Of a stretch of 64,000 nucleotides of DNA, positions 9,421 through 61,625 are shown one piece after another. This stretch comes from Isoetes taiwanensis (Eukaryota > Streptophyta > Lycopodiopsida > Isoetales > Isoetaceae). Each line of letters starts with the position of its first letter. The first letter of the stretch is position 1. A program made the position numbers and the translations under genes. Under the pieces are notes generated by a model that searched no databases, had not been told where the DNA came from, and was given only the letters and a program-made list of their open reading frames with translations. The stretch is from the NCBI GenBank assembly GCA_021234155.1, contig JAJEKV010000020.1, positions 4,014,563-4,078,562 on the forward strand. The letters are read 5' to 3'.

Positions 9421-9496
9421 TGTGTGTTCCATAGACTGACTCGCAAGGCCCTCAATTCCTATTTGTGCTTCCTGTTAGTGATAATTGCCTTACCAC

Positions 9497-10132
9497 TTAT
9501 AGGCCTTTGTCTCGAGCTTCTATCACCTTTGACCATTCCAATTTGCGCAATTCCAGCTGGCCTGGAGTAAGATCCCGGTCCAGCCAAATCCTTTCCCCTT
9601 TTAATGCGCTCCTGTTAAGGAGTACTCTATCCCTGGCTTCTTTTGTATGAAATTTCACAAGTATTGGGCGGGCGTATGAACCCGGTTTTCCCAATCTGCG
9701 AGAAGACACATATAGAGGGTCATGGAGATGCATTTTTTCTGAAAAAAATCTTCTTACCGTGTCAGTCAAATCTTCTCCTTCAATCTCTTGCAAATCTGAT
9801 ATCTTTAGGTTTTTGGTGCGATTTTCTTGATCCATCTGTTCAGAAGAAACCTTAGCCTGGTGAATCTTCATTTGCTCTTTGGTGGTTTCAGCCACCAAAG
9901 AGGCTAGTTTGTTCTCTAGGCCTGCTATCTGTTCCTTGAAGTCTATAGACGGTTTTTGCAGATTGGACTCTGCATTTTGATCTTTGTTTTGGGTGAGCAA
10001 CTCATTGAGAGAGCCCCTGATTTCTGCGACTTCAGACCTAAGGTTCACGATTTCTGCTTTCAATTCCGAGACCAAGACAAACAGACTGGCAGAATCTCCA
10101 TCGGAGTCTGCACCTTTTTTCTTCGGGGGCAT
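9497..10132 (-). CDS. LINE ORF1, coiled-coil RNA-binding protein
   Basis: Open for 211 codons from ATG 10132 (MPPKKKGADSDGD), a good start because it follows a 5' UTR that begins at the element boundary. Residues about 15-110 show heptad-like Leu/Ile/Val spacing with many Glu, Lys and Gln, a long coiled coil. Residues about 105-180 (KNLKISDLQEIEGEDLTD, then YARPILVKFHTKEARDRVL) match the RRM-like core and basic C-terminal part of vertebrate-type L1 ORF1 proteins, with the usual R-P-I-x-V-K-F motif. There is no CCHC knuckle. Such proteins trimerise and coat the element RNA. Plant L1 ORF1 is usually a DUF4283-type protein (as at 56 kb), so this type is noteworthy. It runs to a stop without breaks, though the normal C-terminus may be longer. 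Confidence 0.8.
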   Translation of the reverse strand: MPPKKKGADSDGDSASLFVLVSELKAEIVNLRSEVAEIRGSLNELLTQNKDQNAESNLQKPSIDFKEQIAGLENKLASLVAETTKEQMKIHQAKVSSEQMDQENRTKNLKISDLQEIEGEDLTDTVRRFFSEKMHLHDPLYVSSRRLGKPGSYARPILVKFHTKEARDRVLLNRSALKGERIWLDRDLTPGQLELRKLEWSKVIEARDKGL

Positions 10133-27548: not shown

Positions 27549-29651
27549 TTACAGCCTTGTAATTTTTATGGGCATCCCAAATTCAGGTAGCAATGCAAGG
27601 GCAAATACTGGGGAATGCACATATGTAGACGAAAGTTCCCACGTAAAGGTTTTAAGCATCATTGCCAGAATAATCTTGGCTTCTGTCATAGCCAAAGATT
27701 GCCCAATGCAGGTCCTAGGTCCGAAGCCAAAGGGCATATAACCAAAGAGGTGTTCACAGGCTCCACTAATACCATGTGAGAACCTGTCTGGTCTAAAGTC
27801 ACTTGCATCGGGTCCCCAAAGAACGCTATCACGATGGACTGCAGCTATAGGAATCAGCACTTCAATATCTTTAGAGATGATGAGGTTGCCCACGGTGTTA
27901 TCGCGAATACAACATCTACCAATAAGGGGTTGTGGAGGAAAGAGACGTATTGACTCGAGCAAGACCATATTTATGACTTTCAATTGGGCTAAGTCACTCC
28001 AATCTGCATTGAATTCAAGCACTTCATTTCTAGCTCTTGTTTGCCATTCGGGATATTGAGACAGCAAATAAAATGTCCAAGTAAGAAGGCTTGCTGTTGT
28101 CTCATGCCCAGTAAGCAGAAATGTCATTCCATTATCTAAAAGGAGCGCATCGTTTTTCTGTGCCTCAGATGCCTCCAGTAGCCTATCAAAGAGCAGCCCA
28201 GAGGTACTAGCTCCAAAGCTATGTTCCAACTTTCTCCTTCTTATGATATCCATAAGTATGCCCTTCAGTTGGTTCTCATCTTCCAGAATTTCTTTATGCA
28301 AGCGTGCCCAAAGAAACCTGGAATTAGAAACTTGAGTAAGAGAAGCAACATATAACAGCTTTTAGCTGATACGTAGTAGGTGCTTAATGTTACATTAATA
28401 AGTTAACATGAAATTACATGCAACATACAGCATGCCATAGCAATGACGTACTCTTACTTGTATCCTGGGGTTCTCGAAGGAGATCCAAAACTCAACTTCC
28501 ACTTATTATTAAGATACCTATTGAAACTTCTGTATATTGTAACTGCATCGTTAGTAAGATCAGTTCCAAATAAGGTCTTTCCTAATATTTCAAGCATGAG
28601 TTCTAGAAAGAATAGATATACATCTTCTTGGTCCCTTCCAGTCCAACCATTGACTTCATTGTTTATGGCACAATCCATCCTTTTGGTTCTACTGAACACT
28701 GAATCCCTAATGTCCTCTATCTTTTTCTACAGAGAACAGTACAATCCATAAAGATCTCATCTTAAAAATTTGATATACCCCGACAAACTTCCTGGAGTGC
28801 GCACAGAAGCAACTACAATAAGTTCCAAAAATTTGACAATTGGTGAATAAATAGCATGATAGTAGATTTTATGTTCAATTAACTTCCAGTTGGTTTTAAT
28901 TCTAAATAAAGCATACAAGTAAAGACTACCTTGATTTCCTTATTGTGAAAAGCTGGGCCAAGAAGCCGACGCTGATCTGCCCATATATCCCCCTGTGAGG
29001 TGAACAGTCCCTTCCCAAGAATGTTCAGTCCATGTATATATGATGGCTTTGAATATGAATCAGAATTGTCAACAAGAACTTGGCGTAGTAATGCTGGATC
29101 AGTTATGACAAGCCTTACAGACTTTCCCATGCGGAGAATAAAAACCCTGTCCAAATCCTTTATGCTTATTAGGCCATTCCAGGTTCGTAATAATGCCTCA
29201 TTAGTTAATTTCACCTGTAAGTATAAAGCATGATTTTTTTTAGTGTTGCATAGTAAAACCCATGAGAAATCACAATGAACTATAGCATCATCATTTTATT
29301 AAAAAAGAAGAAGTTGAAGTCATTTTACTTCCAATAATGTTTGGCATAGTCTGCCTATTGTTCCAGTGGAAAATTATACAGATAGCAACAATCTCAAGGC
29401 TACTTATTTCAGTGAAAGATCAAACAGACATTCTCTCAGTCCTTGCATTTGAGCCAAAAAAATTAAATAAAATTGGAACCAACCTGCCCTGGTTTAGAAC
29501 TCGGAGAATACTCAACAATTCCTTGCTTCTTACATTTGCGAACCAGGATGTAGGGGCGGCCAATCCATTGCCAAACAGTCCAAGCTGTAGCACAAGTGCC
29601 TGCTGCTGCTATGATACACAAGCTATATCGGCCGCCCAAAAGTCCGTCCAT
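27549..29651 (-). CDS. Cytochrome P450, CYP72-clan-like
   Basis: Four exons on the minus strand: 29651-29484, 29214-28930, 28726-28458 and 28317-27549, with consistent phases and GT-AG introns, about 496 residues. A hydrophobic N-terminal anchor (residues 9-31) suggests the ER membrane. Signatures: I-helix LLTGHETT near 308-315, ESIR (ExxR) near 361, PDRF near 416, and the haem loop FGFGPRTCIG with the Cys ligand near 443. The start of exon 3 joins smoothly to RRLLGPAFHNKEIK of exon 2. The run EAKIILAMML and the ending are typical of the CYP72 clan, which includes enzymes that hydroxylate hormones and terpenoids; the substrate cannot be inferred. The stretch between the anchor and WNGL is about 25-30 residues shorter than usual and lacks the Pro-rich hinge, so exon 1 may be mispredicted or degraded. 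Confidence 0.85.
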
Positions 29652-31219: not shown

Positions 31220-32545
31220 GGGACCACGATTGCTGGGTATATACTCTCATTGTTGCTTTATGCAGATGATATTGTGATATTTGCTAGAACGGTGAAAGAC
31301 ATGCAACAACATATAAATGCGCTTGCGCTTTTCTGCAAAAATACAGGTATGCAGGTAAATTTGAATAAGACTAAGATATTAGTTTTTGGTGTGAGATTAC
31401 CCAAATTTCAGTTTTACTATAATGAGCAACAAATTGAGATTTGTGATACCTATAGGTATCTTGGCTTGATAGTTGATCATAACTATGGCTGGAATAAATC
31501 TGTAGAGCATAGGACAAATCTTTGGGCTTAAAGCCCTTTATGCAATGCAAAGGAAGTGTTGGAAGGCAAATATCACAGATTGGAAATTAAAAAAGATGCT
31601 CTATGATATGCTTGTACGCAGTGTAATTCTATATGGATGTGAAGCATGGGGACCAGGATTGTCACTTGATATGTGGAAGAGGGTAGAGAAAATACAAAAA
31701 AAGTTTCTTTTGGCAGAGTTGGGTGTTAAGGTGCAGACTCCGTATCCTATGATGTTGGCAGAAACTAGTATGTGGCCATTAGAAGCAGAAGCACTTTATT
31801 GCACTCTAAAATATCTTATTAAAGTACAGGAAATGGATGCACAAAGGTTGCCTAAGCTTGCATTGATACAGAGTACTATGAAGGGTTGGTATGCAGATAT
31901 TGATAAATGGCTCAGGAAATGGGGGATGTCATTAAATGAAATTCCTGATGATAGTAAACAGTTGAGAGAATGGATGGTAGGAAAAATCTATACTACTCTA
32001 TGGCATGATGCAGGTACAAAAGGAAAGTTTTACAAGACCATGATTAACCCTGAACTTCAAGTTGCACCACATTTGGGGAGTAAGATGACTTACTTTAAAC
32101 GACATTTACTATGCAGATTACGTTTGAGTTCACATCATCTGGGGGTGGAGGTAGGCAGATGGGGTAATTTCCCTAGAAGCAGACGCACTTGTAAGGTTTG
32201 TGGTGATGATGAAATAGAGGATGAAGAACACTTTGTACTGAAGTGTCCTGCATATCAAAACTTGAGGCGTAAGAATAATATACCTCAGGGAATTTCATTA
32301 CGTACCTTCTTTATGCTACCATTGGAAAATATATGTAACTATTTGATAGATAGCTGGAAAGTGAGAGAGTTAGCTGTTAAAAACTACAAACAATTGTTAG
32401 AGTTATATGAAGATGAGGAGAGAGAGGACAATGATGCTCTAATGGAGAGCTCATTTGATCAGATGGATGATAAGCAATTTTGATGTCTTATAGACCTGAT
32501 GGTCTCACGGACAATAAACACACCACTTACTTACTTTCTCTCTCT
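31220..32545 (+). pseudogene. 5'-truncated LINE (second half of RT to 3' tail)
   Basis: Starts inside the reverse transcriptase at LSLLLYADDIVIFAR (31240), continues VNLNKTKILVFG and YRYLGLIVDH to 31531, then after one frame change stays open from 31545 to 32483 (312 codons). That part holds the post-RT region (LYGCEAWGPGLS, LGVKVQTPYPMML) and the zinc finger CKVCGDDEIEDEEHFVLKC. After the stop come a stem-loop AGACC-TGAT-GGTCT (32489-32502), CACGGACAATAAA and CTTA-type repeats. It aligns throughout with the 6.3-7.4 kb LINE. The long open stretch implies fairly recent insertion. Confidence 0.85.
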
Positions 32546-36406: not shown

Positions 36407-36787
36407 GCCATTCTATTGCCTAGCTTTGCCAATAACTTGCCATATTTATGCACTCATGCCAGTCCACCGAGACAAACATCCATGACATCTAATCAACATG
36501 ATTAGGGTTCATTTGTTAGTCTAAGTTATAGGTCTTTCTAGAGATTGCCTAAGTTTACTAAGGACATGTACTAATCCAGCCTAAGAACAGCCGTAAAGTT
36601 TGCATTGACTAACATAATCGGTACTAACTAGACTCTTAATTGGCTCCAATGCCTTGGGATGCATCCATGCTGTTGAAATGAATGAAAATCTTGGAATCAT
36701 CTTGGAATGTTAGCTTGGCTATTGTTGCTGCAAGGCCGGATTATGTCCGGCATTGCTCCAAAACACTCCTCTGATCACGCGTGGCCG
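36407..36787. other. Spacer between LINE cluster and Penelope-like element
   Basis: No gene or repeat seen. Confidence 0.5.
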
Positions 36788-39198
36788 CTAAAAAAAAAAA
36801 ACCCGGAGCCAACTAGTTCAGGCAACAACCCTACTAGCAGTTCAAACTGTCTCGGTCAATCCCTTAACAGCCTTATCGTTCCATACATTTAATCGAGCTA
36901 ATTAAAGATGGAGCATCAAACCAAGGTCAAAAGACTCAAAACTTTAATTTATTTCCCATCAAACAATCTTTAGATTTTCTTGTTCATCAATGGGTTCCTA
37001 TCATCTCGTCTGAAGACATTAGACCAGCAAGTGTAACATTATACATTAAGAAAGCTTGTACTTTGGACCATTATAGTCACCTTTCCTTATGTCATCAAGC
37101 TTATTCATGACGAATGTATTAAGGTCATGAATTTGTACTCATCAAATTCCTTTATGTAAAAGGGAAATATAGCCTACATTTCTTAAGCACATATACCATC
37201 CAAAAGTTATATAATAGTCCAAACATAACGCATTAGAATTCTTTAAGTTCCCATATTATAGGGTTTTAATTCCCTACTTTAGCATGTGGAGTATTCTAAC
37301 ATGCACCCATCAAGTAGCATTTACTACTATGGTCCAATCACCATTGTATAACCGTATTTTTCCATTTAGTATTTTTAAAGGGTCTCATCCATATCTAAGA
37401 GTCTAACCCATTAAAATTTCATGATTACCCCTATCATTTAATAGACTCAAATGTATTCAGCAAGAATCCTTATTAATACCGAAATCAAATATTGCTTTTA
37501 AGCATTTTGGACAAATATCAAGCATTTTGTGCCGTGAGCTTAATGGAATAAACAGAAAATAGCTTAAACAAAACATCTATGCACGCTATTCTTTCTGAAA
37601 GTATATCCTATATTTCATGAAGAGATTTTCAAAACAGGATCCACTCAAAACTTTGAGGTCTAACATAACAAGAGGGTCTTATGTCCATGACGAGTTTTCT
37701 TATATTTTCAAAAACAAAGGGCTTTTACTAATATCAAAGGTGTAACGATTTTCAGATTTCATTGTATGAAAACCATTAAAATAAAGAGCAGAAAACTATC
37801 AACTGTTATACCATAGCAGCGGAATAGATATAAGGCACAAAGTATAAAGGTTCCTGTGAAGTAATCTTGTGGTGACAACTATCCACTGTCATCATCCATT
37901 AACTCGTGCAATTGTATCACTGCTCCAGCAGGGCCATTGTTTGATCCATGTTCTCCTCTAAGCAAAAACAAATATGAAAAGCAAAAGGGACAATAGTAGA
38001 AGAATACCACGTACCTGCAGCCAACCAGTACTGAATTAGCATAAGAATGGTAAAACAGTAAGGGCCAGAAGGTACATAGGGTATTCTTGGCTTATCGCCT
38101 TTCAACCATTGTACCTTCTGCTCCAGTTTAGTAAAAGCAAAAAGGAAAACTTGCAGAAATCAAACAAAGGATAGTAAGTCTAAACATTATCTTATGCTCA
38201 CGTAATTATTTATGGTCGTGAGCCCGTGATTTTAATCCAAGAATGACAAGAATTAACATGAATATATCATTTGTCTAATCATTCTAGGCGTGCTAATCTG
38301 AGTTCCCAAGTAGCTTTTCGTGACACAAGTTTGTGTCTTTCGTGCATCTGCACCATTCAAAGCCCTGCTAGGTGTAAAGAAAAAACCTTGTGTTCAGCCT
38401 TCTGTAGAAACACAGTTAATTTAGCGGATCATAAACCGTGACTTATGCTTCTAAAGAACTCAAAATATTAGGCCCTGTAGTTCTGCCCATTTAGAACTCT
38501 TATTTTAGTGTAGATATTTGTATACCATGTTCCTCTTCATCCCAAATTAGATCTTCTTCTACTTGGGTCTCGTGCACAAACCGCTCATTATCGGCATTTC
38601 CTCTCGAAAAGGAAGTCGGCCTTCTATTGAAGCTCCCCTTTTATTAGGATAACCAAAGATATCCATCACCAAGCCTCGCCTTTGTATCAAAGTTTCTACT
38701 TCCGCTCTCCTCTCCATAGTTAGATTATCAATCCAAGGGACTCTAAACAGGCCTCACATTCCCTGTTTGTATCAGAATAGAGCTCAAGGTCATCTTCCGA
38801 ACTATGGCTACCTGACCAACCGTCAGAGTTAAAGCCCATTTTTTTGAAAAGTAAATCACATATCCGGGGTCTTTAGCCAGTCATAAATTCCGGCACTTCT
38901 GCTTTGCAGCTGCAGTCGAGGTTGCATGCAATCGTCTCGAAGCATTCTGCCCTAATCCGGTCTTTAATGGTATGGCCTCCTTTAGTCGGATATTTTGTAA
39001 AATGTCCTAAGGTCCACCCTAATTGAACTTGAACTTAGTAGTATAAATATCTTAAGTGTGTATCCAGCGAATTCTATGGTGTTTACCTGGAATAGAGGCA
39101 TACCTTGAAGCCTTCTTGGTATGCTAGTACATAGGTGAACATTAATTTATTCCATTCCAATAAGAGTGCATCCATGCATTAGAATATAATAAAAAAAA
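36788..39198 (-). repeat. LTR-like direct repeat B (downstream copy)
   Basis: About 2411 bases matching 43350-45759 almost throughout. Differences cluster at CAG/CTG sites. The small spliced gene is disrupted here by those differences, although the exons KGDKPRIPYVPSGPYC (38105-38010) and EENMDQTMALLEQ (37955-37917) are readable. Confidence 0.9.
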
Positions 39199-39271
39199 TC
39201 CTACCTCCTTCCGTAGGACTATTTTGAAACCTGTTAAAATAACATTCATACCGTAACTACAGGGTGGGTAC

Positions 39272-39295
39272 ACCCCTACTTGTTACAGTAGGGGT
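39272..39295. other. 8-bp perfect stem-loop downstream of the RT gene
   Basis: ACCCCTAC-TTGTTACA-GTAGGGGT, about 50-75 bases beyond the RT stop on the minus strand and about 75 bases before repeat B. It could be an RNA structure in the element's 3' part; function unknown. Confidence 0.5.
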
Positions 39296-39346
39296 TTCCC
39301 ATCGTCCTATAGTTTATTTTAATTGACCCAAAAGAAAAGAGTACCT

Positions 39347-42300
39347 TTAAAAATCTTTGATGAGTTGCAGTAGTGTGCTGGAATCATATTTCAGACCAGG
39401 GAATTGCCCTTCTCTAATATATTTACAGATTCTTCTTTTGATCCCTGGTTTATCAAACCCATTGCTGATGAAGTTATTCATTAACTCCCTTAGGTCCAAA
39501 GCTGCTTTAATAGGGCTGGAGTTCACGTACATAAAAGGCATGATCTGAGATAGAATAACATTTCGAGCTTGAAAATATGGCCTGCAGCTACATGCATGTA
39601 CAAATTTCATAGCCTTGAATGGTAATGCCTCTCGTTTATCATATTTCATGGTTTGGAAGAGTCCAAATTCTTTATTGAAGACCTGAATGGTCATATTAAG
39701 GAAATTTACTTTGCTGCCAAACATGCAATTTGGTGTATTTTCAGAATAGTATGTTTCCTCCTTAATGTCAAGTACCTGCAAATCATAAATCTGCAGTTCC
39801 TGTACTACCCCGTCGCTCCATTTGGTTAGGAATTCTTTGATCTTAGGGCAGTTAATAGCCAACAGGTCGTCCATATATCTATATACGAACTTGAATAGTC
39901 TGATCTCCTCCATCCTTCCTTGTTTGGCAAGGTTTTTAATGAAATTGACTTCAAACCATGCTAAGTAAATGTTACACCAGCATGGGCTACAAGAAAATCC
40001 CATTGGGATTCCACAGATTTGTTTCCAGAGGTGGTTACCCAGCTTAACATAGCAGTTGCTAAGTAACCAGGTATTAGCCTGAACAAACTTACTTTTGCTC
40101 ATATGAGACCAACATTTGCCTTGTGGAGCTACCTTGAACCACTTTGCTGCCAGTTTACCATTGCCTGAACTTTTTATCCAAAGTTCATATCTTTTGTTTT
40201 GACTCTTCATGTAACACCAGGCAGCATTTGCCACCAATTCGGATATTCTGCAAATGCCTTTATCCCCCTGAATAGGGATGCTCTCATAGCATTTTGTGAT
40301 GTCGGCAACATATACCTCCTCAATTTTTCCTGGTAGGTTAAGTACCACATCGTAAATAGAATTTACCATCCAGTTGAAATTAATTTTCCCGGGCAGTAAG
40401 GTGCAAATATTAGAACACATGTCCTTTGAAATTTCGGGCCAAAGCTCCACTATAGAATTCAATACTACAGTAATAGTTTCTGCTATTTCAGTGTAGAGGG
40501 AGCCATGCGCATTAGTAATCCAAATGGTAATCATTTTTGTGAGCTTTAGAGATTCCTAGTAGATAGGGGAGCTTATCCGATTCCGTGACCGGGAACTCTG
40601 TGCGCTTTTTATCTCCCTAATTAGTTCCTTTTTTAGTTCTTCATTCTCCGCTCCTATGGGCATAAAGTCAGTACTACACAGTCTTTTCAGAGCCATTTCC
40701 CTAATATGCTTTGGGCAAATGAAAGCTGGGTTGTTTGAAGCTTTATCAACACCCGAAATATAGAAGTTTTTAGTCAACCATTCCAGATTATTAATGACAC
40801 GAGAGTCGTTCAGAGCGAATTTTTGCATTTTGTCTATTTTACGTTTTTCTCGCTTCACGCCAACTTGTTCCAAAGATGGCCGGTTTTAATTTCATCCCTA
40901 TCATTGTCCTGGATGAAGAGAAACTGAAATCTGTATAGCTCAAATATTGAATCACAAGTTTTATTCAATTCGGCCTTCAAATCTTTCCAGATGAGCATTC
41001 TATTTGGGATATGACCCAGGCCCTTTCTGAATAAACCCCGTAGGGTTCTATTCTTTACAATGTCAACATTAGTGCTTCTAATGTGCCCTATGCTTTCATC
41101 AATGAAGTTCTTAAGACCTGGGATTCTACAAGGGCAGATATCTTCCGTTTCTTGTACAAAAATGTAGTACGGTTTGTAACATAGCTCTCTCATATTTTCT
41201 GTGTATCTCCATGAAAACATAGTATCCTCCATAAGCAACTCCCCAACATCCCCTAGCTTTTCTACCATATGTCTATGAATAATTTTCGGGATACATATTT
41301 TGTCTAAAACCTTAGACAGGAAAAAGCAATGGATTATTTTCTTCTTGCATTTTTCCTTTGACTCTGTCATATGCCATCTGCCCTGGCAGTCTTTAAGGAT
41401 GGTCCTACAAATCTGTTTAAATTAAAACTTTAGTGAGTGTGTTAAAGTATCCTATGTAATAGTATTCCTATTAGTCACCTGAGCAAACATGAATCTCCAT
41501 AGCTGAACATGGGCAAATGGCATGTTAGCTAAAAGTGTACAACTGGTCCTTTCTAATTTTTTAGAAAGTCCATATAGGATAAGTTTTTATCCAAAGAATA
41601 GGTTTAGAACCAAACAGAATATAATAATCCTGTAATAAAACATGTATTTAACATACAAGAATGACTTTTGTATAATGAAAGCATACCTATTTCTCATAAG
41701 TGAGCTGTTGCTCTACTCCATCAGGTATTTTTCGACCATGTACTTGTTGTTGTTTGGTGACAGAGTTATCCACTAGATTAGGGGACCCCAATTGTTCAAT
41801 ATCTGAATTATCAGCAATGCTGGACCCCGACTTGGTTGGATTAATGGTAATCCGAGGGGGATTATATCCCTTTACCATGTCGAGTTGCATTTGTTGGGTT
41901 TCTCGTGCCTAGTCTTTCCTCGGGCGCTTGTATTGTAACTGGAACCGCCTTCCAAATTGAGCATGAATGTAGCCTGTTTAATACTTTTTTCGCATACCAC
42001 TGCCATTCTACAGTTGGGGAAATTTAGCTTGAAATCTGCCCATGGATCAGCAGCAAGTAAGGAGGTCATGCTAATAAGTGTGTCTCTTATTTCCAGATAT
42101 GAAAGGAATGCAATGATCCCATCTCTTAACGTGGTTTTAAGGAACTTTTTCATTGAAACCATCTGGGCCACATTGGACATGTCAGGAAATACACTATCCA
42201 AATTGTTGAACATGTACCAGACCGCATGGTCTAGCCATGTCATATGCTCCTTGCAACTATTACCTTTCCTCCTGGGCTCGCATACACATTTGAAATAGGG

Positions 42301-43214
42301 GCACATGCTCCTCCAAACTCTTTTGAGATAGAAAGCATCACGTGTAATAGTTGAGTATGCCATGTGTCCTTTTTGCCTTAGATAAATAAAATCATCCTTA
42401 GCGCATTTCTTGTCAAAGAACCTATGGTCAATGTTGAGTTTGAACTTTTCTTTGACCACTATCTTTTCCATTTTTTCTCACTGCAGCTCCGCCATATTCT
42501 CTTGGGTAGGTGTGATATCACCCAGCATGATCCAAGATTCCCTACTAATTGGGGCCAAGGCACCGAAATTTTTAGTTCTCCAAATGCCCCGTTACGAGAA
42601 TGCAAATAAGACCTTCCACCAAGCCGTTCCTGAATGATGGGGGAACAGTGGCGCTTATGCAATGTGAAGTTAAAGTCTGCATCTACCTCCCCTTTCAGCT
42701 TGCTAACATTATCTTTCATTGCTATTTTTTCCTCTTCTGACAGGAGGGATTCACCAAATGGATCATCCTCTGCATCAACAATGCTTCCCTGCTTACCTTT
42801 TTCCCTTATGTTGTTGCCAAGGCAGGAATTTTTAACCTTATTTGCCTTCTCAAGGGCCAATACCCCTGTAATAAACTGTGTTTTGGCCTGGTCTTCTTCC
42901 ATTGTTCTGCTGTACACCGTGGCAGGCAAGGTATCATAAATATCCTCAATAACTTTCAGCGCATCATCCCATTCTGAACCAGCTTTATTAATCTTGGGTA
43001 CTAGAGCTAACCAGTCATTGAATCCCAGATGGGAAATAGGTTGACAGCCCTCCGGTTTTCTAAGTGCTTCCTTTTCCAGAAGAAACATATGCACTTTGGG
43101 ATTTTTTATGCAAGAGAGCAAAGTCTGTACAGCCAAGCTTGGGCATGCAATTTTACTGCCATTATACCCGATAGGTCCAAGGGTTTTGTTCCATGTTGGT
43201 GGCATATATTCCAT
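39347..43214 (-). pseudogene. Penelope-like reverse transcriptase gene with long N-terminal region
   Basis: Frames in order on the minus strand: 43214-42459, 42471-41872, 41890-41687, then a gap that is probably an intron (GTATGC donor near 41689; acceptor TTTAAACAG near 41414), 41413-40855, 40873-40556 and, in the same frame after one TAG, 40534-39347. The N-terminal part is unrecognised; it holds a Cys cluster (MCPYFKCVCEPRRKGNSC). Next comes a Penelope-style pre-RT region: LRGLFRKGLGHIPN and VDKASNNPAFICPKHI. The 395-residue final frame holds the RT core: VADITKCYESIP (Asp near 78), GIPMGFSCSPCWCNIYL (175-191), YRYMDDLLAIN (Asp pair 222-223) and KVNFLNM (276-281). Two frame breaks lie near A-runs, so the gene may be less damaged than it appears. 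It copies element RNA onto a DNA end. Confidence 0.7.
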
Positions 43215-43349
43215 GTTGTAATCTCCTTGAGAGTCCTCAATATCCTGAAATCAATGTAAATCAGAATCTTTTCATAAATCCTTCAATATGCTCAAAATTT
43301 ATACCAAATGGAGTGATGCCACACTGGTAAGACCAATGAAACGAAATTT

Positions 43350-45759
43350 CTAAAAAAAACCCGGAGCCAACTAGTTCAGGCAACAACCCTACTAGCAGTT
43401 CAAACTGTCTCGGTCAATCCCTTAATGACCTTTATCGCTCCATACATTTAATCGAGCTAATTAAAGATGGAGCATCAAACCAAGGTCAAAAGACTCAAAA
43501 CTTTAATTTATTTCCCATCAAACAATCTTTAGATTTTCTTGTTCATCAATGGGTTCCTATCATCTCGTCTGAAGACATTAGACCAGCAAGTGTAACATTA
43601 TACATTAAGAAAGCTTGTACTTTGGACCATTATAGTCACCTTTCCTTATGTCATCAAGCTTATTCATGACGAATGTATTAAGGTCATGAATTTGTACTCA
43701 TCAAATTCCTTTATGTAAAAGGGAAATATAGCCTACATTTCTTAAGCACATATACCATCCAAAAGTTATATAATAGCTGTCAAACATAACAGGCATTAGA
43801 ATTCTTTAAGTTCCCATATTATAGGGTTTTAATTCCCTACTTTAGCATGTGGAGTATTCTAACATGCACCCATCAAGTAGCATTTACTACTATGGTCCAA
43901 TCACCATTGTATAACCGTATTTTTCCATTTAGTATTTTTAAAGGGTCTGTCCATATCTAAGAGTCTAACCCATTAAAATTTCATGATTACCCCTATCATT
44001 TAATAGACTCAAATGTATTCAGCAGTAATCCTTATTAATACTGAGTCAAATATTGCTTTTAAGCATTTTGGACAGCATATCAAGCATTTTGTGCCAGAGC
44101 TTAATGGAATAAACAGAAAATAGCTTAAACAAAACATCTATGCACGCTATTCTTTCTGAAAGTATATCCTATATTTCATGAAGAGATTTTCAAAACAGGA
44201 TCCACTCAAAACTTTGAGGTCTAACATAACAGTAGGTCTTATGTCCATGACAGAGTTTTCTTATATTTCCGAAAACAAAGGGCTTTTACTAATATCAAAG
44301 GTGTAACGATTTTCAGATTTCATTGTATGAAAACCATTAAAATAAAGAGCAGAAAACTATCAACTGTTATACCATAGCAGCGGAATAGATATAAGGCATA
44401 AAGTATAAAGGTTCCTGTGAAGTAATCTTGTGGTGACAACTATCCACTGTCATCATCCATTAACTCGTGCAATTGTATCACTGCTCCAGCAGGGCCATTG
44501 TTTGATCCATGTTCTCCTCTAAGCAAAAAACCAATACGAAAGCAAAAAGGGACAATAGTAGAAGAATACCACGTACCTGCAGCCAACCAGTACTGAATTA
44601 GCATAAGAATGGTAAAACAGTAAGGGCCAGAAGGTACATAGGGTATTCTTGGCTTATCGCCTTTCAACCATTGTACCTTCTGCTCCAGTTTAGTAAAAGC
44701 AAAAAGGAAAACTTGCAGAAATCAAACAAAGGATAGTAAGTCTAAACATTATCTTATGCTCACGTAATTATTTATGGCTGTGAGCCCCGTACTTTAATCC
44801 AAGAATGACAGTAACTAACATGAATATATCATTTGTCTAATCATTCTAGGCGTGCTAATACAGGTTCCCAGTAGCTTTCAGGACACAAGTTTGTGTCTTT
44901 CGTGCATCTGCACCATTCAAAGCCCTGCTAGGTGTAAAGAAAAAACCTTGTGTTCAGCCTTCTGTAGAAACACAGTTAATTTAGCGGATCATAAACCGTG
45001 ACTTATGCTTCTAAAGAACTCAAAATATTAGGCCCTGTAGTTCTGCCCATTTAGAACTCTTATTTTAGTGTAGATATTTGTATACCTGTTGTTCCTCTTC
45101 ATCCGAAATTAGATCTTCTTCTACTTGGGTCTCAGGCACAAACTGCTCATTACTGGCATTTCCTCTCTGAAAGGAAGTCGGCCTTCTATTGAAGCTCCCC
45201 CTTTTATTAGGATAACCAGCATATCCATCACTGAAGCCTCGCCTTGTATCAAAGTTTCTACTTCCGCCTCTCCTCTCCATAGTTAGATTACTGAATCCAA
45301 GGGACTCTAAACAGGCCTCACATTCCCTGTTTGTATCAGAATAGAGCTCAAGGTCATCTTCCGAACTATGGCTACCTGACCAACCGTCAGAGTTAAAGCC
45401 CATTTTTTTGAAAAGTAAATCACATATCTGGGGTCTTTAGCCACCATAAATTCCGCATACGCTGCGCATAACCGCAATGAGGTTGCATGCAATCGTCTCG
45501 AAGCATTCTGCCCTAATCCGGTCTTTAATGGTATGGCCTCCTTTAGTCGGATATTTTGTAAAATGTCCTAAGGTCCACCCTAATTGAACTTGAACTTAGT
45601 AGTATAAATATCTTAAGTGTGTATCCAGCGAATTCTATGGTGTTTACCTGGAATAGAGGCATACCTTGAAGCCTTCTTGGTATGCTAGTACATAGGTGAA
45701 CATTAATTTATTCCATTCCAATAAGAGTGCATCCATGCATTAGAATATAATAAAAAAAA
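43350..45759 (-). repeat. LTR-like direct repeat A (upstream copy)
   Basis: About 2410 bases; 6562 bases separate the starts of the two copies. This copy keeps the small gene open, except near 45445-45490, where it departs from copy B at a CTG/CAG cluster. Confidence 0.9.
44478..45403 (-). CDS. Small spliced accessory protein of the Penelope-like element
   Basis: Exons 45403-45086, 44679-44577 and 44518-44478 join in phase through CAG/GTATAC and GCAG/GTACGT donors and GGAGCAG and GCTTAG acceptors, giving about 153 residues. ATG 45403 sits in an AAAAAATGGGC context. The first exon is acidic and Ser-rich (SHSSEDDLELYSDTNREC), then an Arg/Gly-rich segment (RRGGSRNFDTRRGF ... NKRGSFNRRPTSFQRG) of the kind that binds RNA, then acidic again; the second and third exons are more hydrophobic (PYCFTILMLIQYWLAA). 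The frame upstream also stays open through MVAKDPRYVIYFSKK, so the protein may start earlier. I know no family match. It lies wholly in the direct repeat and therefore upstream of the RT gene in transcription order. Confidence 0.5.
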
Positions 45760-45772
45760 AAAAAAAAAAAAA
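45752..45772. repeat. A21 homopolymer at the right border of the element
   Basis: Eight As are found at the same place in repeat B. On the element's strand this is a poly(T) at the 5' border, so it is not an ordinary poly(A) tail of this copy. Confidence 0.8.
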
Positions 45773-48700
45773 GCAACTCCTAGGAGTCTTGCACTTTTTA
45801 CCTCTACAATTTAGGTTTAGTACTCAATTGGGCCATTGGCTCCTTGGGTAACTGCCATATGGCAATATGGGCTATATTCACACGTTATATTCTATAATGG
45901 TTGCATGAGTTATATTATAGTATTATGTATCATATACTGATTCTTGCATGGAATAAATACATTTCAATGGATTTATATCTCTATAGAGCAACCTCTTACA
46001 ATATATTAACATGCTAATTATCTAGGTGCATGCATGTGTAATATATTGGCATATCCTACACGTGTACATGTCAATATGTTTGACATGTACTGTGATGTGG
46101 TAGTATATAATAGGTATTTATACCATATAGTATACTGGAACATCACAGGTGATTTGGGACTCATCTTAAAAAGATTCCAACGGAAGTCGAAATTGAGCCC
46201 TTACTCACAAGATTGAAATCCTCTATCCCCCCCCCCCCAAAAAAAAACAAAAGGAAAAAAAAACCTCCCCCTCCCCGATGCCAACTACTATACGGGCGAG
46301 CATAATTTATATTAAATTAATTTTTGGGTTGCCCTAATGGGCAAAATAAACTTTACCTTTAGAGTGTTTGAGTAAAAGTTAAGATCTCAGTGATCAGATT
46401 TAGGAGCCCTCTCTGTTGCTTCGGCGTAAAGATGCATAGTTGGATGCAAGAAATGACGTCCGCCCACGAGCTTTGTTATTATTTTGTCTTCTAGACTTGA
46501 ATACAAGCCTTTTTATAGCCAGATGTGAACTGGTTGTGTTTGTTGGCATCTACATTCCGACCTGGCATTTTAAAACTAATGTGTTGTTTGTCGTCTCACT
46601 TACAACAATCATTCCATCTTTAGATACTTAACAACTGTAACAAGAATCCATGGTGGCACAAGATGGTAGAAGCATGTTAGGGTGTCCCTTAAAAGATATC
46701 ATTTAGTGACCAGAAAAGTACCTAAAAAGGTAGCCAACATTGGGTGCTAATGTCTCAATAAATATTTATTTTCAATCTCTAATAGGTTGCGCTTTCACTT
46801 AACATTGAATCTTAACATGCCCTCGACTTTTATACTTTTTAAATTGATTTTGATGAAATAGGAAAAAAAGAAAGTACTAGTTTTTGGAATATAGATACTT
46901 TGGCAGGTTCCAAAACTGGACATCTCTAACATGCTTTTAACCAAGAAGGCATGCCTTTAAATTTTATTCTACCGGCAAAGTTCAAAGAACAAGGTTCTTT
47001 GCATTATAGCAGAACTACTACAAGTGAGTATATGCAGCATTTTGAGAAATCATTTCTAAGGTTTGAAACTATTTTAATAATTAAGGTAATGGGTAGTCAA
47101 ATATGGTGGAGTATCAAACCATTTCGCTAGATTGCTACGTATTCTTCTTTTGTACAAGCAGTGGCTCCCATGCCCCATATAGCACTAGCTATAATCTGTT
47201 AAAGCTCTTAGAGTTCAGAAAACAAAATTATGCAAATCCAAGAAAGCATAGATCCAAGCATATTGTAGGGACAAGGTAATATAAGAGATGCAATGACTTG
47301 AATTTAAAACAAAATACTGATTTCCGCACTAAAGATATAGTCGAAAACTTATCTGGAACTCCTGAAATATGTCTGCATCAACATATAAACTAAGTACCAA
47401 AGAAAATTGTTGCATTGCATAGTCACAAACAGGAAAGGAACTCTTAAATTTCTTTGTTACCTCTAAGGTGACATGCCAGATGAAAAAAAATTCAACTATA
47501 GTTCATGATTATTTTTCTTGAATTCTATACAACCACCTAGACATCAAGAATGGTTCTAATCCCAAGCCATGAATTTTGTTGAAATTTCTATGTTTGTACA
47601 AAATAAATCCCACAAAATTGAAGCTCCATTGTCCATATAACAAAATTGGAAGTCCCACATCCTTCTACTTAAAGAAAACAAAGGCGCAGGAATTGATAAC
47701 ACTATGATGCAACATCTTGCATTTACGTGCAACTTAGGAACCACAACTCCAAAATTGAAAAAACATTATATTATTTGTGAGCTTATTATCTAAATATTTG
47801 AGCCAGTCATGTCGGCTCTCCACTTCTTCATGATCTGATAAAATGCCAAAGCATTTTACCACATAATTTAAGAAATTTGAAAAACAATATAGCTTTTCTC
47901 TGCTTAATGGCGATCATGTACTAATCCTGGTATGAATCCACAAAGCTAAGCATGAGAGAGGCATTCTCTTATAAGCCCTGAAAAAAGGAAAGCAAACTTA
48001 GGAGTATCTAAATAAAGAGACGCTAAGGTGGAACTCCAAAAACATTATCAGTTGAGGCTTTTGCTTTTTCATCGTTTTTCTCTAATGGTATGATGACCTA
48101 ACGCTTGTCTGCAATCGAATAATAAACGAACTAAGTAGTCACAACAGTGAAAAGTTAAGAAAACATGAAGCAAAAAAAAAGTATAACCAATAGTTCAAAA
48201 ACACTTTGTGCCCTAAGTGATTTGCATATGACTTGGAAATCAATGAAATATTCCCAACCACCTACCCAACACAATCAAACAAAGGTTTGCCCTTTCTACC
48301 AATGCCAAAAAGGAGAGAAACTGCCTTCCCCAGACATATTACGAGGGAGAAAGTACCCTCACGGGATATTCTGTGGGGTTCGGGTACAGGCTCACCCCTA
48401 ATGGGCTTGCCAGGCCCCTTACCCATGTAATGTCTTAGGTTGAGCCAGGACTTGAAATCCACAGAATGTCTCGCGAGGGATGACAAAGGTTTTGTTGCTT
48501 TATTTTCATCTTTAATTAATGGTAAGAAATCTTCCAAGTAGCACCTTAGATATAAGCAAATGGTCTCAAGACCTCTATGACAAAGCCAACTGGATATTAT
48601 AGGGCCAGAGCCAAAAAAAAACATTTTTGAGTTTTTCTATTTTCAACTCATTTTTTCAAAATAATTTCAATAATTATGGTAGCCAATACCACTTTAGCGT

Positions 48701-55946: not shown

Positions 55947-55969
55947 GAGAATTGAGCGAAAGCAGATTT
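55947..55969. repeat. Target-site duplication of the L1, left
   Basis: GAGAATTGAGCGAAAGCAGA plus TTT; identical at 22 of 23 bases to 61949-61971. Confidence 0.92.
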
Positions 55970-55970
55970 G

Positions 55971-57228
55971 AATGGCTTTTTTAATCCGGAGGAGGTCAAC
56001 ACTTGCGACTGCGGGAATTGTGAGGAGGTTAAGCTCTCTACTCTGAATATAACGAAGACGAAGATCGGGGAAAGCAAAATCAGCAACTCCATCCCGATTA
56101 TAGGCAAGAATAATAAAGCTAAAGGTTCACCTTCTTCTCTTTCCTATAAAAATGTCCTGATGAATGTTGTTTCCCCTGTTCAACCAACTAACTCAGGGAG
56201 TCAGAAGGTGAACAGTGTGGACTTTATTGATCTCTTTGGAATTTCTGATGCATCTGCTACTGACATGTTTTCTAAAAATGCTATTCTTGTTCATTTTCCG
56301 TGGAACTGCCCAACTCAGGGGGATATTAAGAATTGGATCACCAAAACCCAGCATATTCCGATTCTCTCCATCCTTAAGCTTGATAAGAACACATTCCAAA
56401 TAGTGTGCAGGGACGAGTTAGGTGTTGATCATATCCTTAGGAGAAAGCTGGACTTCATAAGCAACTGCCCATTTTACATAATGAGGTGGTCTGCTAATTT
56501 CTTTCCGGGTATGGTAGGAGAGATTCAAACCACCACTTGGGTTTCCTTTCCCAACCTACCTCCTGCCTTCTGGACTCGATCCCATTTACAGCCCTTTCGG
56601 AATCCCTGGGGGAGGTTATAGAAGTCAACATTCCTCAGACTAACTTCCCTTCAGTATGCATATCTAAGAAAATCAAGTCAGATTGGAAGAAGAAAATCAA
56701 AATAAGGGTCAAAGCCGAGGCGTTCTTGGATTTAAATATTAGCTACTCTAAATGGCCTGTTCAGGTGCCTACTGTCACCCCACAACAAATTAAGCAGAAA
56801 CAGGTATGGCAACCCAAAGCTACAACAAATATAGCCGAAGATGCGAGCAGGGTGATTGAGGACCCTGTCCACCAGGATGAACAGCACCATACCAACAAGA
56901 TTGTCCTGTCTGATATGGAAAAATATAATAATATTCAAAAGTTGAGATTCGGGATAACCTGGTGGTCCTAATTAAGAATGTCAATCTTTCGGTTAAGATT
57001 GATACTGGTGATTTCATTTTTACCTTACCCAAGAACTTTGAATCTTATCAGCAAGAGGATGAGCCAGACTCCCAGCAAAGAAGTGAAGATCTCCTGGCTA
57101 TGGAGGACAAAGGTTGGAATCTAGTTGAGAGGAAAAAAGGCAGAGGTAAAAAGAAGATATATTGTGGCCCGAGTAGATCAAGTCCTAGAAAGCAGACCAT
57201 TCAAGCAGGTATTACAGGTAATGGATAA
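55971..57228 (+). pseudogene. L1 ORF1 (DUF4283-like nucleic-acid-binding protein)
   Basis: Three frames in succession, 55971-56621, 56537-56971 and 56962-57228, form one protein of about 410 residues broken by two frame shifts. The central part (ILVHFPWNCPTQGDIKNWI, IVCRDELGVDHILRR, WVSFPNLPPAFW, then FTALSESLGEVIEV) follows the DUF4283 pattern of plant L1 gag-like proteins: a beta-rich fold, then W-V-x-F-P-x-L-P and a loop with ALSxxLG. The C-terminus KGWNLVERKKGRGKKK is the usual basic tail. A CCHC knuckle is not evident, and the N-terminus is probably truncated by the insertion event. It would bind element RNA. Confidence 0.75.
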
Positions 57229-60200
57229 GGATATTTGCTGTGTCACCTGGAACCTCCAGGGAATTAATAGTATCATTAAAAGGGATAGATTAAAGGTATG
57301 TCTCTCCTCCCTTAACCCTGATGTTCTGTTCCTTCAAGAGCATAAGATTCATGATCTGGATCATGAGACTATTATTAGTAGAACTTTCCCTCCCAATTAT
57401 AGTATTTGGTCGATTCCTGCTAACGATTCTTCTGCAGGAATAGCAATTGCCTGGAGGAACAATCTTAATATTTCTGACAATTTCATGATTAATGATAGAA
57501 ATGGCAGATGGCAGATTCTTCTTTGCACCATTCACAGAATTAAGCTTGCTCTGGTTAACATTTATGCTTACAATAATCCTGTAGAAAGGGTGGAGATATG
57601 GAAAAAGGTTAAAAGCAGTCTGGATAACCTTCAATTTGATGAATGCATATTAGGGGGAGATCTGAACATGGTAACTAACAGTTACATGAAGAACAAAAAT
57701 TTTAGACCTCTTGGGAGGCATGAAAAGGAAGCCTGGATGGATCTTACTCGGGGCCATAATTTAAATTTAGCAAGAACTAAACCTGATTCATACAGTTGGA
57801 CAGATAAAAGATTGGACCCCACCCTGTGCCTCCATGATAGGTTCTACCTATCAGAAAATCTCTGGAATGACAGCAGCAGGGTCAATAACTTGGAAGGATT
57901 TACTTTGTCAGACCACTACCCCCAACAAATGAGAATCAAGGCTTGCAACTAAGTCAACAGAAAGAGGAAAACATACTTCAAGCTTAACACTAGTCTTCTC
58001 GAGCATGAGGAATTTATGGACAGATTACAGGAGATTTTAGCTACAATTCCAAAACCAACTGGAAAATCGGGTTGGATGCATTGGTGGGTTATGGCAGCCA
58101 AAGCGATCAAGAAGTGGCTCAAAGAGTGGGGTAAAGCAGTCCATTATAGTAAGCTCGCATTCCTCCAAAATCTGAGAGATAAGCTTCCCACTGCCTCTGA
58201 TGATGAGAAATGTTAGTCCTGTGCCTCCTGGTTCAGGACTATTCATGCATACGACGGACCAGGTCAAGCTCAAGGATCCACAGACAGGCATGGGTCAGCC
58301 ATCAAAGGCTCAGCAGAAGACCAAGCAGCAGACCACGCAGTCAAAGCCTGCGTCCGTCAACAAGAGGCACCGCTCAGACAAGTGATGGCGCGTCACCGCC
58401 CGCGTCAGCGTCAGCGTGATTCTAGGCACTTCAAGAGGCACCGCCAACATTCCTGCAAATCAGGCCTCCTTCCAGGAGTCGGCACCGAGATCAGTCAGGG
58501 TGTCTATATTGGGCCAAAGGCCATTGTACTATATATATGAGTAGAGCTAGCACATGAGTTTTTAGATGAGTTTTGAGTCTTGTCTCTCTTCAGTCTTCTC
58601 TCGATTGCGAGAGTTCATGTATGTTCATCATTGATATCAAGGAAGCTTATCATTTTCCTCTCACTGTTCTCTCTTGTTCTGTTTTCTTCTTGTTCTTTTC
58701 TTGCAAATCCCGCGTGACATAGTCCCCCGGATTCTCCTGTTAGATCCAAGGGTCCTCACAGAGGGCTGTCTTGCAGGAGTTCCCGAACCCAGACCCCAAA
58801 CAAGAAAGAGGACATTAAAGCAAATATTGAAAAGGAAGAAATTAGAATAGCTGAAGGATGGAGACTCAAAGCCAAGATTAGGGAGATCAAAGATGATGAA
58901 AGAAGCAGCAAGCTAAGGGCAGACTGAAAAAGAATCATATTTTCAAAATAAGGGTAGGAGATGAAGATATCTTGGAGGAGGACCAGATTAAGCTAGCTGT
59001 TGCTGCCCACTTCACTAACATTATGGGCACTAATCAGGATTGTCCCCGGGATACCATGAACGGCTTCATCAATCTCCAAGCAAAGGTTAGTATTGAGGAC
59101 AACTTAAGTATTGAAAAACCTTTTTCCAAGGAGGAACTCTTTAAGATAGCATTGGAAATGGAAAAAGGTAAAAGCCCAGGACCTGACGGGCTTCCAGTCG
59201 AATTTTTCATCAAAGCATGGCCTGCCCTTGGAGAGTGCTTAACCCACTTGGCTAACGAGTTCAGGGATATCAAATGTTTGGATGCGAGAACCTGATCACG
59301 CTTATCCCTAAGACTGATATGCATGTTACCCTTTCGGATTACAGGCCTATTTTGCTAACTAATGTTGTATATAAGATTATTTCAGGGACCATTGCTAGAA
59401 GACTTAAGATTGTGCTAGAGAAAATTATTAGCACATCCCAGGCTGCTTATCTGAAAGATAGATTCATTCTTGACAATGTGGTGATGGCAGTGTTAGGCCT
59501 AAATTGGGCTAAAGACTCCAATCAAGATATAGCCCTCATTAAGCTTGATATAACCAAGGCCTTTGATACAGTTAGTTGGAATTTCCTTTTCAATTGTTGC
59601 AGTGCTCTTGGCTTTTCGGATGAGGTAATTCTTCTTTTTAAAGCTATTCTCTCAAATTCCAGATCTTCAGTTATAATTAATGGTGAGTTGTGGCCCTTTC
59701 TTCCCTCTGCAAAGAGGTGTCAAGCAAGGCTGCCCACTAGCCCCATTCCTCTTTCTTATTATTATGGAGGCACTTCATAGCAAGCTAGAAGAAGCCAAAA
59801 GAACTAACTTGATCCAAGGTCTCACCCTCCCCGAAAATGGGGTAATGGATCAAATATTGAATGGACATTTTGCAGATGATACATTTCTTCTAGTCTCGAT
59901 GTACAGCAGATCCCTATCCAACACTCAAACCATTTTGGAGGATTTTGGTGTAGCCTCGGGATGTAAAATCAATCTAACTAAATCCAAGGTTGTGGCCAGA
60001 GATCAGGTAAAAGGAGAGCAAACAGCTGCTCTCATGGGCTGTAAGTATATTCTTCCTACTAGCTCGTCCAAAATTTTAGGAATCCCCTTAGCTCTTAAAG
60101 GGAGCCCCTCTGACATCTGGACGGACATTATAGAAAAATTCCAGAAAAAGGTGGACAATTTAAACTCTAAATATATATCCAAACAAGGCAGGGCCATTAT

Positions 60201-61625
60201 TGCTAACTTTGTCATCTCCTCATCTCATGTTTATCAGTCCTCTGTTATCTTAGCCCCGAAGAAAGTTTCTTCCAAGCTCTGCGGCCAGAACAAGAGATGT
60301 TGGACCCCGGTAGCCATGGAGGAGTGCTGTAAAAGCAAAAGCATGGGAGGGCTGGGAGTTATCAACATTGAGAAACAGGGGATTGCCCTTGCAGCCAAAT
60401 ACTTTTATAAGGCAGCCTACAACAGTGTCAACCATCTGATCTCGATAATTATCAGACACTATTTAAGAAAATGTCTCTCTTATGGATGGAGGAAACTTAA
60501 TATTAATCTGCCTCACTCTATTTACTTTCCCTTCTCGGTTCCCAATTCCATCCCTGGTCTTATTAAGAAGTGGATTAGAGCCTAGAATATGGTGAAAGGC
60601 TTGTTCATATGGAAGGAGGGGCTTTCTATGGATCAATCAATATTCTGGAATCCGGCCCTCCATACTAATGACTCATCTCTTTGTTTAGCCTGCCACTTTC
60701 CGGAACAGGCTAAGCTATGGAGCAGTAAGGGGATTCACCATATTAGGGATTTGTTTAATGACCATGGAATCATTCCCTTCAGGAACTCGGTGTTGGCTGA
60801 TGAAGGTGAAAACACAGAGATGCTCTATAATAATATATGCATGATGCTAATCCATGGAAGGTGGTCAGAAGACAATCTCAATTGGAACCATAACGGGTCT
60901 GCTGGCTTTACTGTTAAAGCAGCTTACAAATATTTAATGAGGAACCAGAAGATTTCCTTGCATAGCAAATGGCAGATCGGGGAAGAAAAGTGCATCAGAA
61001 ACCTGAAATTTATGTGGTCCAACCCCATCCCTCCCAAAGTGAAATCCTTTATGTGGCAGCTTTGGCACAAGGCTCTGGCCACTAATTACAAGAGGCACAA
61101 GCTCCACATGGCTGATTCTGATGCATGTCCTAGATGTCTGAGCCACAGGGAGGATGAGGAGCACCTATTTCGATCATGTACCTGGTCTGAATGGGTTCTC
61201 GAGCTTGCATCCACTTTGTTTGATTATGATCTTCATGCCCTCGACTCGCTGGATTTCTTTTCGCCAATTAATCCCAATGACTATCCTTTTGTGGAGAATG
61301 TGGAAGGGCAGGAACAACTTCATATTTAACTGTGATATCACTCACCCGGAAGCTGTCATCAAGCAAATTGAATATGATATCAAATGGATTATTGCTGTTG
61401 GTTAATGCCTATCATATTCCTCATAACTCTCTTGGTAGTTTTTCAGGTATTTTTTTTATGCTGGTACGTAAGCTCAAGTGGAAGAAAATTGATCCGGTCG
61501 TCAATCAGCAATGGATCAAAGTATTTGGACCTCCGGATCTGTTCAGTCATGAGGAGCCGTGTTTTTGCAACTGCTGCTGCGACCAAAACCCGGATGCAAG
61601 AAGAGGACAACTATGCGAAGAATAG
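57221..61625 (+). pseudogene. L1 ORF2: APE endonuclease, RT, zinc finger; interrupted
   Basis: ATG 57221 overlaps the ORF1 stop. Endonuclease at 57221-57952: CVTWNLQGINS, DVLFLQEHKI, ALVNIYAYN, CILGGDLNMV and TLSDHYPQ. Linker at 58016-58210, then the foreign insertion, resuming near 58790. RT: KGKSPGPDGLPVEFF (59160), LSDYRPILLTNVVYKII, AYLKDRFILDN, LIKLDITKAFDTVSW (catalytic Asp), a frame change near 59700, RGVKQGCPLAPFLFLI, GHFADDTFLLV (FADD, 59868) and INLTKSKVV. After the RT, a region with GGLGVINIEKQGIALAAKY. Near 61000-61180 the finger CPRCLSHREDEEHLFRSC. Stops and shifts occur near 57950, 59295, 60586 and 61329. It nicks DNA and primes reverse transcription there. Confidence 0.85.
58211..58760 (+). 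mobile_element. Solo-LTR- or TRIM-like insertion inside the L1
   Basis: L1 coding sequence stops after NLRDKLPTASDDEK (58208) and resumes near 58765 (in-frame piece DIKANIEKEEIRIAEGWR from about 58813). The interruption is more GC-rich, starts TGTTAGTCC and ends CTCACA (TG...CA), and has a TATA-like ACTATATATATGAG at 58529-58542 followed by a T/C-rich leader, as in a copia-type LTR. No internal domain is present. Flanking five-base duplications are not clear (AGAAA against GAGGG), so boundaries could be off by some bases. Confidence 0.5.

Follow-up and report, generated by a model that had tools for sequence, protein, structure and literature searches.

How could a Penelope-like element (PLE) express its proteins and enter new genomic sites when no GIY-YIG endonuclease can be recognised in it? 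Of all retroelements PLEs stand closest to telomerase, and little is understood of how they move. The question is raised by the plant Isoetes taiwanensis, in which a stretch of 64,000 nucleotides of contig JAJEKV010000020.1, here called the window, holds such an element on its minus strand at 36790-45772. An earlier note on this DNA had described a reverse transcriptase (RT) core, an upstream VDKASNNPAF block and flanking direct repeats, all of which were found where it had placed them. The reading put forward here, to which we give a probability of about 0.66, is that of a PLE family without a recognisable GIY-YIG domain and with an RT on the Naiad side of the PLEs; its repeats, resembling long terminal repeats (pLTRs), would bear a first exon, E1, from which an N exon and an RT exon would be expressed as alternative products, its RNA would hold a structured signal, and its insertion would be primed at T/A tracts. 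For the PLE identity and the pLTR structure the evidence is strong.

The window copy (W) reads as one member of a multicopy, intron-bearing, Penelope-type retroelement family. The genome examined comprised 1,658,258,908 bases in 1110 contigs; the v1 assembly is described as 1658.30 Mb in 204 scaffolds and 909 contigs, assembled by Nanopore and Illumina sequencing together with Bionano maps; the word Penelope does not occur in the text of that paper (PMC8566536). Among open-licence papers the family was not found in print. With the RT core as genome query, 105 RT matches were scored among 3759 candidates, with identities of 56-100% and open frames of 376-736 aa, some of them with internal stops. 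Sixteen copies were fetched (loci of the same genome bear L-numbers), which together with W gave 17 loci. Direct repeats of 1.1-2.7 kb, 93.5-99.4% alike, surround the RT gene in 14 of these and were not seen in L002, L010 and L013; the two repeats of W have long identical blocks in common. Since they flank the RT gene at the same place in so many loci, the repeats are part of the element and not unrelated to that gene, and with E1 inside them the LTR-like coding repeats of the note were confirmed. Three matches to the core of the structured RNA described below follow in a row at C907:30918867, 30925653 and 30932441, spaced by ~6.79 kb, and RT matches lie at C907:30920275 and 30933845; the stretch C907:30918867-30932480 thus reads as a tandem array of units with common pLTRs.

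The repeats of W differ in 97 columns, 50 of them gaps, which form 37 clusters. It was found that 24 of the 37 touch a CAG/CTG site within 2 bases; such positions make up 18.5% of the repeat, and none of 10000 random placements reached as high a value. The pattern suggests errors of Nanopore sequencing at methylated CHG rather than an effect of age; the insertion may therefore be younger than the raw repeat identity says, and some of the frame breaks of W, which lie near 42475, 40870 and 40540 and were left unmended, may be artefacts. Several other copies are open at those places.

The comparison of the copies allowed the gene structure to be read. E1 was present in 14 of the 17 loci, with a further weak match in L013 and none found in L015 and L016, and 13 of the 14 close it with a phase-0 CAG^GT (^ marks an exon border); W has a second E1, with a broken frame, in its 3' repeat. 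Of 14 loci, 13 show a phase-0 N acceptor AG, L015 included, where the CAG comes 3 bases further on. All 16 loci compared have the RT acceptor CAG^, and it keeps the RT frame in each of them except L007, which slips just after. The positions of the signals are conserved at both places even in copies whose RT identity falls to 57%. The N exon closes with its own stop, at or before the donor, in the 11 loci compared, and GT follows directly in six (W and five others); L014 and L015 have it a few bases on. Conservation of the RT exon begins at its first codons, and 19 loci have no start Met in common (five have none before the conserved KKxVH block, five have the first at -8, nine elsewhere). As the E1 donor and the N and RT acceptors share phase 0, N has its own stop and the RT has no common Met, there is a strong case for E1 as the first exon of the element's own genes. 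Alternative splicing is likely, this one start exon being joined, with the frame kept, to N in one product and to RT in the other, which gives the predicted proteins E1-N and E1-RT. The retained introns that had been noticed before are thus borne out, by sequence signals only. As for the splice sites first proposed, the E1 end at 45086 stood, 41689 and 41414 proved to be 2 bases off each (the N-exon donor of W lies at 41687^41686, the RT acceptor at 41412), and 44679 failed as a protein-exon acceptor because of indels and RNA pairing.

The ratio of non-synonymous to synonymous change (dN/dS) had a median of 0.24 for E1 (range 0.08-0.65; 17 of 55 pairs with usable dS) and values of 0.05 and 0.07 for N (2 of 28 pairs usable), by which E1 is under purifying selection and N more so. 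The diverged relative L024 repeats the gene plan of the family. Its repeats measure 2.5 kb and are 97.5% alike, and the one on the 3' side holds a different acidic open reading frame (ORF) with the end AACCAG^GTTTAT. The acceptors read TTTTAG^GAA for the N exon and TTACAG^ATT for the RT exon, and every junction is in phase 0.

The same junctions bear on a different way of making the RT, in which E1-N would be one protein and the RT would arise by stop readthrough or reinitiation on a spliced E1-N-RT mRNA. The TAG placed exactly before GT in W and five loci agrees with it, N, stop and RT being in frame after splicing. In L014, however, N and RT fall out of frame because of the bases that separate the stop from the donor, and in L011, L016 and L024 there is no GT at that place, which leaves readthrough or reinitiation an unlikely explanation.

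An earlier reading had placed in the repeats a separate three-exon gene for a small accessory protein, with E1 as its first exon and the second at 44679. The second exon is indeed open, with splice-like ends, in W and the closest copies. In the diverged copies it contains frame-breaking indels while base pairing is kept, and the phase-0 end of E1 faces the conserved phase-0 acceptors of N and RT; a separate gene is thus quite improbable, and E1 is better read as the first exon common to the element's own proteins, the second exon as a structured RNA.

The structured stretch is present in 16 of the 17 loci (not L013). A first RNAalifold fold and a long local hairpin merged into a three-way junction once the flanking bases were compared. 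In the long hairpin 90.1% of the cells are paired, against at most 49.2% when it is slid, with nine both-side changes; its further pair types were not above shuffles (126/500). After 20 further copies, chosen for differing letters, had been added, 34 of 36 rows entered the permutation test, L071 (no D anchor) and L057 (too short) being excluded. Helix P1 joins the upstream strand with the strand past the junction, and P3 the central with the downstream strand. Cognate strands gave -9.8 kcal/mol in P1 and -12.96 in P3, compared with -7.12 and -8.81 for swapped ones (0/20000 permutations each), and the control strand pairs were null (U:D 6234/20000, C:X 19529/20000). Folding of single sequences preferred one or the other fold, depending on the copy. 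The core pattern had 323 exact matches in the genome and 0 in the reversed control. Taken together, the comparison makes a strong case for an RNA structure. A donor-like CAG^GTACGT lies in the downstream strand, inside P3, and a role as splicing switch is possible. RNA was looked for only in Rfam, where the structure had no match in W, 14 loci and six more. Nor did Rfam give a hammerhead or other ribozyme in the window at 36500-46100 (E<=5), in 14 loci at the gathering threshold or in L002 and L013 (E<=0.5), and no positive control matched; a hammerhead reading of the junction was rejected, as its core letters differ from the motif and Rfam had none.

The impression that no GIY-YIG domain is visible was upheld by hidden Markov model searches of the N-terminal region and of the small protein: Pfam at E<=10 gave none in 10/10 N exons, four RT exons and two E1 exons. 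The N-terminal region, already called unrecognised, had no convincing match in NCBIfam, PHROGs or PDB either. The PDB searches were empty or noise, and searches of viral contigs yielded no relative. A Cys-rich block, CPYxKCxCxPR...C...WLDHxxWYMFNN, is conserved by eye in the N exon and recurs in L024 and, more loosely, in L023. AlphaFold models of the RT exon (pLDDT 59) and of the N exon (pLDDT 40), with one Foldseek search, gave no usable fold. The genome itself holds GIY-YIG matches (121 of 150 scored, among 263 candidates). As partners of the element they were rejected, the four inspected ORFs adjoining other ORFs and not PLE RTs. These four, L017-L020, are 115-154 aa long, and in L017, L019 and L020 they stand downstream of ORFs that by eye are PIF1-helicase-like.

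The kinship of the RT was approached with a profile built from the family and its relatives. It matched mussel contigs with E of 1.6e-22 and 1.3e-21, a host exon of telomerase reverse transcriptase (TERT) with 8.1e-5, a telomeric PLE of the same genome with 0.75 and the best ORF of a long interspersed nuclear element (LINE) in the window with 1.8; the LINE value is not significant, and Gypsy was not listed at E<=10. By hhalign the family RT gave 99.9% with the mussel RT, taken to be of Naiad type (9e-33, 394 columns), 84% with a Penelope type, 31% with TERT, 4.9% with the telomeric PLE, 0.5% with LINE and 0.15% with Gypsy. The Penelope-type assignment of the note, against LINE and Gypsy, is favoured by both comparisons. 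When the mussel-type PLE RT was used as genome query, 102/102 scored places matched, of 1916 candidates (best E 2.8e-25), many of them over most of the query length, and family members were among these places. Contigs up to 94% identical to the query exist in bacterial gill-symbiont assemblies, where they are surely mussel host DNA, so that the sequence is a real one; the mussel RT presumably belongs to the Naiad clade. As an observation apart, L037-L042 represent such mussel-like transposon DNA in gill-symbiont assemblies, a contamination of reference genomes. In a tree of PLEs only, with long end branches and no Chlamys sequence, the family and its relatives were united at 94/97 and joined with the mussel-type, presumably Naiad, RT at 99/96, against the Penelope type and the telomeric PLE. 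An initial tree that also held TERT, LINE and Gypsy was discarded: its branches were saturated (length 10), and TERT and LINE fell inside the family. On these comparisons the RT is read as Penelope-type, probably on the side of the animal clade Naiad (with Chlamys).

Endonuclease-less PLEs of Selaginella and conifers are already in print (PMC9033089), so that the note's suggestion of an undescribed endonuclease-less lineage is to be taken with caution; the RT of the family is, however, not close to the telomeric PLE at L025 and L026 (the 4.9% above). An ordinary telomeric PLE without endonuclease, of the Coprina/Athena type, would suit the host group, that of Selaginella, and the lack of a found endonuclease (PMC9033089). 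The kind that looks telomeric is present in the same genome as a different lineage: L025 (C957) and L026 (C920) have PLE ORFs of 680-686 aa, stretches with 17 and 9 CCCTAAA units, no GIY-YIG at E<=10 and an RT that comes closest to the Penelope type (98.8%). Scattered heptamers number 0-5 in W and in 15 of the 16 fetched copies (L002 was not counted), and a telomeric identity for the family is very unlikely. A further match lies at C957:1491065-1491715, ~3.3 kb from the contig end, and a fragment of the family (KFAFND..GMDKASTNPVFICP) at L025 6620-6946, minus strand, near the telomeric PLE. An LTR retrotransposon, a LINE or a group II-like element with an odd RT, to which the long direct repeats and a weak NCBIfam group II RT match might point, is hardly credible given RVT_1 in the RT exon, no protease, integrase or RNase H in Pfam scans of the element, and no profile match to the LINE or Gypsy RTs of the genome, group II RTs lying outside this comparison.

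The ends of the element are bounded by T-tracts. The internal part starts with AGA and ends in a CCTACGG..GGAGG-like stretch, after which T8 opens the 3' repeat. The T-runs at the flanks are mostly longer, 6-24 on the 5' side (nine copies) and 12-36 on the 3' side (eight copies; the boundary of L003 is elsewhere). Paralogous empty places span the W site, and ten of them were fetched. A run of T4-T6 stands in nine of these and TTCT in L052, and next come GGG (GGA in L047) and TTCTA; the filled site has T21 and T12 where these have the short T-tract. At this one site no target-site duplication was present besides the T-runs, and ~7 bases seem to be missing against the empty paralogues. Target-site duplications are variable among PLEs. 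A second clean empty site was sought for L008 and L012, and none was found. The W site suggests a short T-tract target, no duplication and added Ts. Priming at a U8 template by an A-ending strand, with slippage, would fit the sites of both W and L012, and endonuclease-free insertion at T/A tracts is plausible, if thinly supported.

It is tempting to combine these observations in a scheme. The 5' pLTR would act as promoter and first exon; E1 spliced to N would give an ORF1-like E1-N protein, and skipping of N would give E1-RT. As E1 joins either, both proteins would share its Arg/Gly-rich, probably RNA-binding module. The unspliced RNA would serve as template, which could explain why the introns persist, and the folded RNA in the 3' pLTR would tag it for the RT. 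At a T/A tract, a DNA 3' end that finishes in A would then pair with the U8 tract, and there priming would start and slip, adding Ts, and the other end would be joined through T/A microhomology. In its boldest form the scheme describes an undescribed PLE lineage in which the endonuclease is replaced by T/A-tract priming from an internal U8 template with telomerase-like slippage, a gag-like protein and the RT are alternative splice products of a pLTR-borne RNA-binding exon, and a bistable RNA in the same pLTR exposes or hides a 5' splice site; this we regard as possible but doubtful.

Several points weigh against the reading preferred here, that of an alternatively spliced PLE family without recognisable GIY-YIG and primed at T/A tracts. 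The splice junctions are read from signals in the DNA alone; the E1 donor is absent in L001, L006 has CGG in place of the N acceptor AG, the lack of a GT after N in the three loci named above affects the N donor too, and the RT exon gave no pair with usable dS. A cryptic nuclease in N is possible, because the AlphaFold models are too poor for folds to be recognised, and the family has no recognised hammerhead, unlike many PLEs, which carry one. The RNA permutations were uncorrected for the relatedness of the copies, and the upstream strand covaries also with the central strand (0/20000; 23/20000 with the last 9 bases alone, which the junction leaves mostly unpaired), so that two exclusive folds are possible and the RNA may be a switch, with the long hairpin as alternative, rather than one fold. 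The empty paralogues are ~72-80% identical to the joined W flanks, which makes the pre-insertion target and the ~7-base loss uncertain and the footprint likely, not certain; L012 sits at a pre-existing poly(T), the start of a high-copy repeat, and the added Ts may therefore not be general. The best NCBIfam match of the RT was a group II intron RT (E 2.7e-6 in L004, 0.007 in L012 and L014), far below the cut-off and as a generic RT would presumably give; trees and RT comparisons covered PLE, TERT, LINE and Gypsy sequences and left group II RTs out.

Table 1. Features of the window copy (window coordinates; ^, exon border)
Feature	Position	Strand	Description
5' pLTR (upstream)	43352..45772	-	T21 + ATTATAT ... 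GGG + T8
Exon E1	45086..45403	-	106 codons, acidic, Arg/Gly-rich middle; ATG to CAG^GTATAC donor, phase 0 (predicted)
Structured RNA (conserved)	44552..44683	-	three-way junction: P1 TACAATGG:CTATTG(T); P2 GGC:GCC; P3 AAGAATACC..GTACCT..GGCC with GGCT..AGGTAC..GGTATTCTT
T8 tract	43352..43359	-	5' repeat/internal boundary; GGG T8 AGA in 9/9 copies compared
N exon	41687..43244	-	~517 codons in open copies; acceptor TTTCAG^GAT, phase 0; TAG directly before GTATGC; frame break near 42475
RT exon	39347..41412	-	~690 codons in open copies; acceptor AAACAG^ATT, phase 0; CxC..GHIR block, VDKASNNP, RT motifs; frame breaks near 40870, 40540
RT core ORF	39347..40534	-	DITKCYESIP, GIPMGFSCSP, YMDD, FLNM, KYDKRE
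T8 tract	39191..39198	-	internal/3' repeat boundary; T8 in 8/9 copies compared, T13 in L004
3' pLTR (downstream)	36790..39198	-	T8 + ATTATAT ... GGG + T12 at flank
Structured RNA, second copy	37990..38121	-	in 3' repeat

Naiad/Chlamys elements, the permuted-domain PLEs reportedly described by Craig et al. in 2021, carry an N-terminal GIY-YIG domain. Their likeness to the family lies in the RT, where some 400 aa can be aligned, beginning at the DKAxNN block and reaching the YDKRD tail (as judged on the mussel RT, presumably of Naiad type). In the family no GIY-YIG was found, and it differs further by the exon in its pLTR, by an N exon that stands apart and has a stop of its own, by the RNA element and by the T8 boundaries. 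Both names appear in PMC10941475 and PMC12477816. The telomeric endonuclease-less PLEs of Selaginella and conifers, represented here by L025 and L026 only, agree with the family in PLE RT, plant host and an endonuclease not found, and differ in RT lineage and in telomeric repeats, which are theirs and not the family's. PLE pLTRs, tandem units and kept introns have been published, and in Pen2a_Av of the rotifer Adineta vaga the ORF has its first 12 aa encoded within the pLTR (PMC3846280 and PMC11167929). These features the family shares with the Penelope/Poseidon PLEs, such as PAc of Anolis and the Pen families of A. vaga; those possess GIY-YIG and, in PAc, a hammerhead, whereas in the family neither was found and the pLTR holds an exon of 106 codons. 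Telomerase RT shows a weak similarity, above that of LINE (the E of 8.1e-5 given above), but TERT is a host gene, and no Telomerase_RBD match was obtained in the RT exons scanned.

With its many near-intact copies, two inferred proteins linked through an exon in the pLTR, a clear candidate for an RNA signal and an insertion footprint that can be read, the family is a plant system in which the persistence of introns, endonuclease-free priming and the purpose of the pLTRs become testable. It also places two PLE RT lineages without recognised endonuclease in one genome.

Two single copies contain internal duplications, at L009 2595-3689 and L010 556-4429 along the element (549 bp at 100%, 946 bp at 99.5%), possibly products of assembly or of template jumps. 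Around W, ORFs named by eye as LINE-like lie at window 6840-10132, 31545-32483 and 55968-61329, and a P450-like ORF, likewise named by eye, at 27549-28301.

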